DNA from: a virus
DNA length: 33,372 nucleotides
Virus record (IMG/VR): IMGVR_UViG_3300025617_000064
Coordinates: 1-33,372 of that record
Strand: one strand, 5' to 3'
A model generated the notes under the pieces. The model was given only the letters and a program-made list of their open reading frames with translations, had not been told where the DNA came from and did no database searches. The position numbers were made by a program, and so were the translations under genes. The stretch's first letter is position 1. Every line of letters starts with the position of its first letter. Below are positions 2,678-16,581 of this stretch, in pieces.

Positions 2678-2708
2678 GGTTGACCAGAATACAAACTTAT
2701 CTTATACT
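2678..2708 (+). promoter_or_regulatory. Sigma-70-like early promoter 4
   Basis: TTGACC (2680-2685) in GGTTGACC is followed by a 17-bp spacer and TATACT (2703-2708). It directs the AAA+ ATPase gene with a leader of about 30 bases containing AGGAG at 2735-2739. Confidence 0.8.
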
Positions 2709-2746
2709 ATATGTATAGTTAGAAATTGACACATAGGAGCTAGATG

Positions 2747-3553
2747 ATGTCAGTAGCAAAAAAAGCAGTAACCAAGTTCGAAACAGACGAGCAAGTAATG
2801 AAGCGTATTAAAACACGTTTTGATATCTTGCACGATATGACCAAAGCCGCAATCAACAACGATGTTCGTGCAATGATTGTAACAGGACCTCCAGGTGTGG
2901 GCAAGAGCTTTGGGGTTGAAGCTGAATTAGAAAAGGCTTCAATGTTTGACGTAATTGGAGGCAGTGGCCTCAAGTACGAAGTTGTAAAAGGTGCAATGAC
3001 AGCAGTGGGGTTGTACGCTACACTGTACAAGCACAGTGATCGAAATCACGTGCTGGTGTTTGATGATTGTGACAGTGTGCTGATGGATGATCTCTCTCTT
3101 AACATCCTCAAGGCAGCTCTTGACTCAGGCAAGAAGCGTACAATCCACTGGAATGCGGATAGTTCAAAATTGCGTGGCGAGGGTATTCCTAACAAGTTTG
3201 ATTTCCACGGCAGTGTTATCTTTATAACTAATATTAAGTTTGAGAACGTGCGTAGCAAAAAGCTCAAAGACCATCTGGAAGCACTGCAAAGTCGTTGCCA
3301 CTATTTGGATCTTACATTGGACACAATGCGTGATAAACTGCTACGCATCAAACAGATTTTCCAAGAAGGAGAACTGTTCGAGGCATATGGATTCACACCA
3401 GAGCAAGGAGAAGAGATTCTTGCGTTTATGGGCGAAAACAAAAATCGCCTACGTGAAATGAGTTTGCGTATGGCTCTTAAGATTGCTGACTTAACCAAAG
3501 TAAGCAGTAATTGGAAAGAGTTGGCAGAGAATACAGTAATGTATCGTGCCTAA
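2747..3553 (+). CDS. AAA+ ATPase
   Basis: A 268-aa ATPase. Walker A GPPGVGKS is at residues 47-54 and Walker B VLVFDDCD at 102-109. A later SVIFITN strand probably holds the sensor Asn. ATG 2747 is preferred because AGGAG (2735-2739) is seven bases upstream; ATG 2744 is only four bases away. The gene is monocistronic under early promoter 2678 and is followed by a structured RNA region. One loop of that region is complementary to this gene's ribosome binding site, suggesting feedback control. The cellular target is unknown. Related AAA+ proteins occur in T4-like marine phages, as far as I recall. Confidence 0.88.
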   Translation: MSVAKKAVTKFETDEQVMKRIKTRFDILHDMTKAAINNDVRAMIVTGPPGVGKSFGVEAELEKASMFDVIGGSGLKYEVVKGAMTAVGLYATLYKHSDRNHVLVFDDCDSVLMDDLSLNILKAALDSGKKRTIHWNADSSKLRGEGIPNKFDFHGSVIFITNIKFENVRSKKLKDHLEALQSRCHYLDLTLDTMRDKLLRIKQIFQEGELFEAYGFTPEQGEEILAFMGENKNRLREMSLRMALKIADLTKVSSNWKELAENTVMYRA

Positions 3554-3563
3554 AGAATTACAA

Positions 3564-3632
3564 CTAGACCGAAAGGCTAGTGTAATATAGATCGTCATTT
3601 CACAGTCTAGCTCCTGGACGATCTATCACTTA
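3564..3632 (+). ncRNA. Candidate structured RNA with anti-RBS loop
   Basis: Two hairpins lie in the gene-free stretch after the ATPase. The first (3564-3580) has a GAAA tetraloop with CTAG.CC paired to GGCTAG. The second has a perfect 10-bp stem: ATAGATCGTC (3587-3596) with GACGATCTAT (3617-3626), around a 20-base loop. Within that loop TCTAGCTCCT (3606-3615) is the exact reverse complement of AGGAGCTAGA (2735-2744), the ribosome binding site and first start base of the upstream ATPase gene. The region may be a regulatory 3' UTR or a processed small RNA. No convincing separate promoter was seen. Confidence 0.55.
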
Positions 3633-3667
3633 AGGCGGGCGGTGTAAAAGCCCCCGCCTGTTTTTTT
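3633..3667 (+). terminator. Rho-independent terminator
   Basis: AGGCGGG (3633-3639) pairs with CCCGCCT (3653-3659) and is followed by G and seven T. It ends the ATPase/structured-RNA transcript 13 bases before the next gene. Confidence 0.88.
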
Positions 3668-3679
3668 ATTAAGGCTAAT

Positions 3680-14540: not shown

Positions 14541-15508
14541 TGTTTGATATTCTACAATACTTGCCTGCAAAACGTAAACAAACTTCAAGCGGTTGGATTT
14601 CGTTTAACGCACCGTGCTGTACACACAACGGCGAAAGCCCAGACAAACGTCAGCGCGGAGGTTTAAAAGTAGCAGATGATTCGTGGAGCTATCATTGCTT
14701 TAACTGTAACTTTACAGCAAGTTTCTTAATGGGACGCAATCTCTCATTTAAGGCAAGGCGTTTACTGCAATGGCTAAACGTACCGCAAGACGAAATTGAA
14801 CGCATCAATCTGGAAAGCCTGCGACATCGCAGTATTGAAGGCATTGCCAACGAACGTAGACAAATCACACAACGTTTAATGAATATAGAGTTCGAAGAAC
14901 GTGACTTGCCTGACTTTGCAGAAATACTAACACCTGAGAAAAGTTTGTGGAAGTACATAGAACAGCGGTGTTTACCTGCAGACTATCCTTACATGTTTCA
15001 GCAACATGAACACATAGCAAGACACGGTATAGTAGTACCATTTACACACGACAATACTATTGTAGGGCATACAACACGTTACATAGATGGGCGTACTCCA
15101 AAGTATATACAAGAAGCACAGCCAGGATATGTATTTGGCACAGACTTGCAAAAGGATGAATGGAAATATGCTATTGTGGTTGAAGGTGTGTTCGATGCTC
15201 TTTGTATCAACGGACTTGCTGTATTACACAATGAAATCAACGAAGCACAGAGTAGATTGATTCGCAGTTTAGAAAAAGAAATAATTGTGGTACCGGACCA
15301 CGACGAAGCAGGACTTAAATTAATTGACAGTGCATTGGAATACGGATGGAGTGTGAGTGTGCCCGACTGGGAACGTGATATCAAAGACGTAAATGATGCT
15401 GTATGCCGTTACGGCAAACTAACCACTGTTATGTCCATAATGGAAAATGCAGTCTCGGGCAAAATAAAAATAGAAATGTCTCGAAAAAAATTAAAAAGAA
15501 AACTATGA
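14540..15508 (+). CDS. DNA primase, T4 gp61-like
   Basis: A 322-aa primase. An N-terminal zinc-binding region has Cys26/Cys27, His29 and C53-x2-C56 (YHCFNCNF). The TOPRIM catalytic core is VVEGVFDAL with Glu215, and VVPDHDEAG with Asp253 and Asp255. T4 gp61 makes pentaribonucleotide primers and works with the gp41 helicase, encoded here one gene downstream at 16578. Length is close to T4 gp61. Codon use is core-like. The C-terminus is very basic (MSRKKLKRKL). Its stop overlaps the radical SAM start (ATGA). Confidence 0.92.
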   Translation: MFDILQYLPAKRKQTSSGWISFNAPCCTHNGESPDKRQRGGLKVADDSWSYHCFNCNFTASFLMGRNLSFKARRLLQWLNVPQDEIERINLESLRHRSIEGIANERRQITQRLMNIEFEERDLPDFAEILTPEKSLWKYIEQRCLPADYPYMFQQHEHIARHGIVVPFTHDNTIVGHTTRYIDGRTPKYIQEAQPGYVFGTDLQKDEWKYAIVVEGVFDALCINGLAVLHNEINEAQSRLIRSLEKEIIVVPDHDEAGLKLIDSALEYGWSVSVPDWERDIKDVNDAVCRYGKLTTVMSIMENAVSGKIKIEMSRKKLKRKL

Positions 15509-16581
15509 AACATTGCCCCGAAATACATCACGGATTATATTTGCAACCAATTGGTACACAAGGAGTAAAGTATGCTCCGTGTTGCCAGGCCAAGACAGCG
15601 ACAGTAAACAACAATGATTTTTCTTTTAAGCATGATTCTTATCTATTAGCTCTAAGAGACGAAAACACAGCAGGTGTACAGTCAACTGAGTGTAATCGTT
15701 GTTGGGAAGTAGAAGATGCCGGCGGAGTTAGTAAACGTCAAGGCTCACTACAGTTTGCAAAAGAAAACACAGTAGACAGTACAGGGTTACAATTTTTAGA
15801 ATACAATGTGAATTGGAGTTGTAATTTAGCTTGTGTAATGTGTGGCCCAGAGTTTAGCAGTAGATGGGCTAAAGAATTAGGATTAACCGATTCGGCAGAT
15901 TTAGCTAATAAAACCAAAAATCAAATAATCGACAGTTTGGATTTATCAACGATTAAAAGAATTCATTTCAATGGTGGAGAACCGTTGCTTAATGAAGAAC
16001 ATGTAAAGTTATTAAAAAAGATCGATAACATCAATCAATGTAAATTAACTTATAACACCAATGGCACAGTGTTACCAAGTAAAACTGCAATACAATATTG
16101 GGAACAAAGTCGATTAGTTCAAGTCTGGTTTAGTATCGATGCCACTGACAGTGCCTTTGAATACATACGCTGGCCCGGTCATTGGCAACAAGTGCAAAAG
16201 AATATACAATGGTATATTGATAATTGTCCTAGTAATGTTATGTTTGGACTAAATGTAACAGTAGGCAGTTATAATTTACTGGAAATTGATAAACTGTATC
16301 GTTGGTTCGAAAACAACATAGCAACCAACCGAGAAGGAGATCCGAGTGATTTTAATTGGCAAACCGCCTATAACTTCGATTATAAGTATTTGCCTGACAT
16401 TATCAAAGATGAATGTTTGAAGAAATTAAGTTACATTGAATCCTTAAAATCGTTGTATAATAATGTTGAGGATAACACAGAAATTCCGAACAATCGATGG
16501 ATAACCAAATTGGATAACATTGATCTTCGTCGTGGCACAGACTGGAAAACTGCACTGGAAATTGGCAAATATTATAAATGA
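15505..16581 (+). CDS. Twitch/SPASM-type radical SAM protein
   Basis: A 358-aa protein from ATG 15505, overlapping the primase TGA; the longer frame from 15403 lies inside primase. C106-x3-C110-x2-C113 (CNLACVMC) binds the SAM [4Fe-4S] cluster and FNGGEP (155-160) is the SAM-contacting loop. Upstream Cys pairs, YAPCCQ (26-27) and ECNRCWE (63-66), fit auxiliary-cluster ligands of twitch/SPASM enzymes. These enzymes modify peptides, sugars or other small molecules by radical chemistry. No precursor peptide was spotted nearby. It sits between primase and helicase genes, an unusual place, and is A/T-richer than both. Confidence 0.85.
   Translation: MKHCPEIHHGLYLQPIGTQGVKYAPCCQAKTATVNNNDFSFKHDSYLLALRDENTAGVQSTECNRCWEVEDAGGVSKRQGSLQFAKENTVDSTGLQFLEYNVNWSCNLACVMCGPEFSSRWAKELGLTDSADLANKTKNQIIDSLDLSTIKRIHFNGGEPLLNEEHVKLLKKIDNINQCKLTYNTNGTVLPSKTAIQYWEQSRLVQVWFSIDATDSAFEYIRWPGHWQQVQKNIQWYIDNCPSNVMFGLNVTVGSYNLLEIDKLYRWFENNIATNREGDPSDFNWQTAYNFDYKYLPDIIKDECLKKLSYIESLKSLYNNVEDNTEIPNNRWITKLDNIDLRRGTDWKTALEIGKYYK

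Follow-up and report, generated by a model that had tools for sequence, protein, structure and literature searches.

Autoregulation in which the 3'UTR of a bacterial mRNA acts on its own 5'UTR has so far been described in a few single cases. The hok mRNA of plasmid R1 folds back on itself, with the 3' end keeping the translation region at the 5' end locked; it is part of a toxin-antitoxin timer, which trimming of the 3' end activates and Sok RNA counters. The c4 RNA of phages P1 and P7 is cut from a leader and targets the downstream gene ant. In Staphylococcus aureus, a 3'UTR motif of the icaR mRNA pairs with its own Shine-Dalgarno (SD) sequence and represses translation (PMC3868564), and the autoregulatory small RNAs OppZ and CarZ of Vibrio cholerae derive from 3'UTRs, with RNase E processing and Hfq involvement shown (PMC7398697). 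A conserved phage family with 3'UTR-to-5'UTR autoregulation was not found in the literature searched. Here, we analyze a phage AAA+ ATPase gene followed by a hairpin whose loop is complementary to the ribosome binding site (RBS) of the same gene.

Results

The window, i.e. the whole stretch of 33,372 nt analyzed here, stems from an uncultured phage, represented by a 33-kb record, and encodes UvsW-like and DnaB-like helicases, products with tail-protein matches and a ribonucleotide reductase. Three tRNA genes are located in tandem at 720-950, upstream of the ATPase locus, and a Radical SAM protein (15403-16578; phrog_14086, with a weaker QueE-like match) adjoins the DnaB-like helicase. The ATPase gene product, an AAA+ protein of 269 aa, belongs to the family of T4 NrdC.10; structure comparison recovered the AAA+ fold only, with best matches to NorQ and ORC/clamp-loader types at a TM of ~0.55 or less. 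A DNA similarity search of the ATPase locus against phage sequences yielded no match. The predicted promoter (Table 1) leaves a predicted leader of about 28 nt, and most homologous loci display a near-consensus sigma-70 promoter, TTGACA/C-17-TATAAT, ~31 nt upstream of the start codon (mean consensus score 10.7/12 versus 8.3 in shuffles). The downstream terminator was not listed by an automated terminator scan of the window. Promoter and terminator delimit a short transcription unit of about 950 nt, and the ATPase gene probably forms a self-contained unit comprising promoter, short leader, strong RBS, ORF, anti-RBS element and terminator, which is presumably expressed early.

Table 1 Features of the ATPase locus in the window, and RBS / 3' element pairs of homologous loci
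Feature	Position	Strand	Sequence or remarks
Predicted sigma-70-type promoter	2680..2708	+	TTGACC-17-TATACT; 10/12 consensus matches
RBS, candidate target of the 3' element	2735..2744	+	AGGAGCTAGA; 12-bp helix spans 2734-2745
AAA+ ATPase gene, T4 NrdC.10-like (phrog_1250)	2744..3553	+	
GAAA-capped hairpin	3557..3586	+	By folding; also in L001 and L030, most relatives without it
Anti-RBS hairpin	3587..3626	+	10-bp stem, 20-nt loop; by folding and stem covariation
Anti-RBS seed	3606..3615	+	TCTAGCTCCT; exact reverse complement of 2735-2744; co-changes with RBS
Intrinsic terminator	3633..3667	+	GC-rich stem 3633-3659, T7 3661-3667; by eye and folding
RBS / 3' element: window, L001, L038			AGGAGCTAGA / TCTAGCTCCT
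RBS / 3' element: L029			AGGAGCTAGAC / GTCTAGCTCCT
RBS / 3' element: L039			GAGCTAGACA / TGTCTAGCTC
RBS / 3' element: L053			TAGGAGCTAA / TTAGCTCCTA
RBS / 3' element: L051			AGGAGCATTC / GAATGCTCCT
RBS / 3' element: L049			CGGAGCAA / TTGCTCCG
RBS / 3' element: L115			AGGAGCCAAC / GTTGGCTCCT
RBS / 3' element: L106			TAACGGAGTA / TACTCCGTTA
RBS / 3' element: L109			GGAGATGAGT / ACTCATCTCC
RBS / 3' element: L090			GGAGTGTGT / ACACACTCC
RBS / 3' element: L005, L010			TTGTAGGGAGTARTA / TATTRCTCCCTATAA; some G-U pairs
RBS / 3' element: L015			ACGAAAGGCA / TGCCTTTCGT
RBS / 3' element: L261			TGTTGAAAGGC / GCCTTTCAACA
RBS / 3' element: L260			CTGACACAGA / TCTGTGTCAG

The initial annotation had placed the hairpin in a gene-free stretch behind the ATPase gene, and this stretch indeed spans 126 nt (3554-3679). 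The claimed perfect stem of 10 bp is formed by ATAGATCGTC (3587-3596) and GACGATCTAT (3617-3626) and encloses a loop of 20 nt, in which TCTAGCTCCT (3606-3615) matches the reverse complement of AGGAGCTAGA (2735-2744) without exception. The helix covers the SD sequence, as had been stated, but does not end before the ATG, since two ATGs are arranged in tandem and position 2744 falls on the A of the first one. One G-U pair can be added at both ends, yielding a helix of 12 bp with an energy of -19.8 kcal/mol, and opening costs are low (1.8 kcal/mol for the RBS and 1.5 kcal/mol for the loop). The GAAA-capped hairpin, the anti-RBS hairpin and the terminator stem are all present in the minimum-energy structure (z -4.8), in line with the compact RNA that had been described. 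Searches with Rfam 15 at the gathering score identified only the three tRNAs in the window and no RNA family in eight relatives; a permissive threshold gave only weak, likely chance matches. In shuffled 3'UTRs of the window locus, a complement of at least 10 nt to the 25-nt RBS stretch arose in 37 of 20,000 cases, a figure for this locus alone that is notable, not proof; decisive evidence comes from the homologues.

Homologous loci, on metagenomic contigs, were collected by protein searches (L001-L019, L038-L117, L132-L211 and L215-L292) and by a DNA pattern search with the loop sequence (L022-L037); loop conservation among the latter is by construction, because they were selected by this sequence, and the main tests used loci found by protein only, except L029. 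For loci of the first set, a rule assigned the start codon to the upstream-most ATG with a good SD sequence; L109, mis-set by this rule, was re-read by eye. In the closest relatives, the loop is kept and the stem replaced. Alignment of 20 class-A hairpins with exact coordinates revealed two-sided changes at 10 of 10 stem pairs, with 91% of cells pairing and a covariation score of 0.65 compared with 0.30 when shuffled and at most 0.17 when slid. The covariation check proposed in the initial annotation hence turned out positive for the hairpin stem as well as between loop and RBS.

Exchange of 3' elements between loci demonstrated that, on average, an RBS fits its own 3'UTR better than swapped ones. 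Across 100 non-redundant loci, the own helix score was 20.1 versus 15.8 for swapped partners (z 14.3, 0 of 50,000 permutations), the duplex energy at 81 loci was -16.1 kcal/mol for own and -13.1 kcal/mol for cross pairs (z -10.6), a flank-only score anchored on the GGAG/CTCC core gave z 5.0 (0/100,000), and a second, largely separate homologue set gave z 5.5; these z values overstate precision, because related loci are not fully independent, and swaps between members of one sequence class act against the measured effect. Helix scores of at least 22 were observed at 35 of the 100 loci (5.5 expected). The pairing is confined to the ATPase gene to a large degree: helices of at least 10 were found for 24 of 90 ATPase genes versus 6 of 323 other ORFs of these loci, where swaps predict 1.4. 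A general system acting on other ORFs was set aside, the six cases mostly resembling internal or out-of-frame starts. The ATPase RBS ranked top within its own locus at 36 of 50 loci (13.6 expected). In the window, it ranks first of 20, scoring 26 versus 19 for the next, and the 10-mer occurs at two places only.

The homologues display ten or more different RBS/seed solutions with compensated changes (Table 1), and neighbouring lineages on the ATPase tree carry different, compensated pairs. The L109, L090, L104 and L106 types are close on this tree, so that their compensated changes are fairly recent. A hairpin that persists after loss of complementarity, the case named beforehand as contradicting the proposal, is rare; where the hairpin is still in place, 7-8 bp or more are kept in most loci, in some of them with a single bulged base. 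A separate arrangement is found in the L003 3'UTR, where the loop of a terminator-like hairpin at +79, GTTTCCTTTATTGTTAG, can itself form 17 bp with the RBS, G-U pairs included, and is preceded by two CTCCC loops.

In four loci, an ORF has been inserted behind the ATPase gene and is itself followed by the element, at +1177 in L057 (TGTTGAACTCCT, a helix of 12 bp, within the loop of a hairpin ahead of a terminator), at +354 in L060 and at +109 in L114 and L115. The element is therefore tied to the transcript 3' end, not to the stop codon. A decayed 7-bp copy is located at +827 in L008 and L017. A minority of loci display no clear element or 6-7 bp only (e.g. L081, L105, L108 and L111), and none of the thirteen cultured T4-like or jumbo phages examined has a clear element (Acj9, CC31, T6, RB69, ValKK3, K493, D486, PBECO4, phiAS4, AhFM11, KEN39, Morttis and fENko-Kae01). 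Cultured phage PA5oct harbors 8 Watson-Crick and 4 G-U pairs, but within a hairpin stem. The anti-RBS element is absent from the L018 clade. Its ATPase gene is followed by another conserved structured RNA (L134:3919-3967, L133:1097-1145, L166:3004-3052 and others) with the pattern CTGCAGTGTGCGTA-GAGGC-AATGTCAATAAGTC-CTCT-TCGATAA, an inner stem varying in a compensatory manner (GAGG/CCTC, ACGG/CCGT, AAGGG/CCCTT, GCGG/CCGC), no Rfam match and no complementarity to the RBS.

Discussion

Collectively, the complementarity, the stem covariation, the co-change of RBS and seed, the gene specificity and the position set by promoter and terminator, all evident from sequence comparison, point to a self-targeting anti-RBS RNA element that probably limits translation of its own, presumably early, ATPase gene. 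They support the specific pairing of the 3'UTR loop with its own RBS proposed in the initial annotation; from these patterns we infer that RBS and seed pair in the cell and that pairing represses translation. As soon as transcription has reached the 3' end, the seed, now exposed, would pair with its RBS over about 10-12 bp. This helix should block 30S binding, because it covers the SD sequence in most lineages, and the paired mRNA would probably be open to RNases. As the seed is made last, early ribosomes would escape and later initiation would be shut off, such that ATPase synthesis would be capped after a first burst by negative feedback without a protein.

Whether the seed acts within one molecule or between molecules divides two readings, each of which we regard as possible yet somewhat short of probable. 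Acting in cis, the 3'UTR would fold back onto the RBS of the same mRNA, limiting translation to rounds begun before the 3' end is made. The short unit with its own promoter and terminator offers a concentration advantage for such folding, the pairing is gene-specific, the unit monocistronic, and icaR provides a precedent (PMC3868564); this advantage shrinks at a distance of more than 1 kb, as in L057, however, and in several loci the seed begins at the stop codon, where terminating ribosomes would cover it. For action in trans, which we hold just as tentatively, RNase processing would free seed, hairpin and terminator as a phage small RNA that represses the mRNA it came from and perhaps further mRNAs of phage or host. 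The order of seed, hairpin, AU-rich stretch and U7 terminator (e.g. L068 and L072) resembles Hfq-dependent small RNAs, and the class-A seed is unchanged even at some loci whose own RBS has drifted to a one-base bulge. Additional RBSs would be on offer in the L093 phage, where the gene directly upstream has GGAGCGATAG, and in the L039 phage (182 kb), where two neighbouring genes of 53 and 145 aa, possible trans targets, have the RBS GGAGCTAGA (G001:C1:138506-138514 and 139367-139375; L212). Such extra targets are nevertheless few and uncontrolled, no other RBS in the window comes near that of the ATPase gene, and whole-contig counts of seed complements before ATGs are too sparse to prove trans targets.

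Explanations without a gene-specific RNA contact fare worse. CTCC is common to most seeds and could reflect a generic anti-SD motif, a 16S mimic or C-rich loop, yet the flanking bases co-change with their own RBS and several helices are located mostly upstream of the SD sequence (L249-L265, L260, L267), making this reading very unlikely. That the complementary arms flank one gene would also fit an inverted repeat at the DNA level, for example at the termini of a mobile gene cassette; we consider this highly improbable, as the arms overlap the SD sequence in most loci and differ between lineages, and one arm resides in a covarying RNA hairpin adjoining the terminator and is separated from the gene by an inserted ORF in four loci. 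Chance complementarity, at about 0.2% per locus and after a broad initial search, might account for a single case but hardly at all for compensated re-occurrence across many lineages.

Beyond the self-targeting element as such, a broader reading, on which we are evenly divided, is that a widespread phage RNA module at the terminator of an early ATPase gene serves as a self-timer of translation and that its seed has repeatedly been rewritten in concert with the RBS, RBS and seed being a co-evolving lock and key that joins both ends of one mRNA. The ten or more compensated solutions constitute natural evidence for selection on pairing, and they supply ready-made orthogonal pairs for a comparison of cis and trans action. 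They also single out the unstudied nrdC.10-type ATPase, whose dose these phages apparently keep under a tight limit.

Among the described systems, the locus resembles hok in that the 3' end would lock the 5' translation region; hok-type features, namely a toxin-antitoxin timer, activation by 3' trimming and a Sok-like counter-RNA, were not seen at the ATPase locus. With the c4 antisense RNA it shares a phage RNA whose loops are complementary to an RBS (reviewed in PMC12197685), but here the element sits at the transcript 3' end and is aimed at its own gene. As in OppZ and CarZ, the transcription unit closes with an RNA element that is complementary to its own transcript and ends in an intrinsic terminator, and a protein-free feedback is proposed (PMC7398697); unlike these, it belongs mainly to a single-gene phage unit. 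The feature by which the icaR type is recognized, a 3'UTR motif complementary to the SD sequence of its own mRNA, is present, and repression would follow the same route. Whereas icaR combines a long 3'UTR, a UCCCCUG motif and RNase III cleavage of the duplex (PMC3868564), the element described here serves a phage gene, is built as a compact hairpin by the terminator, and carries a seed re-tuned with its RBS in many lineages.
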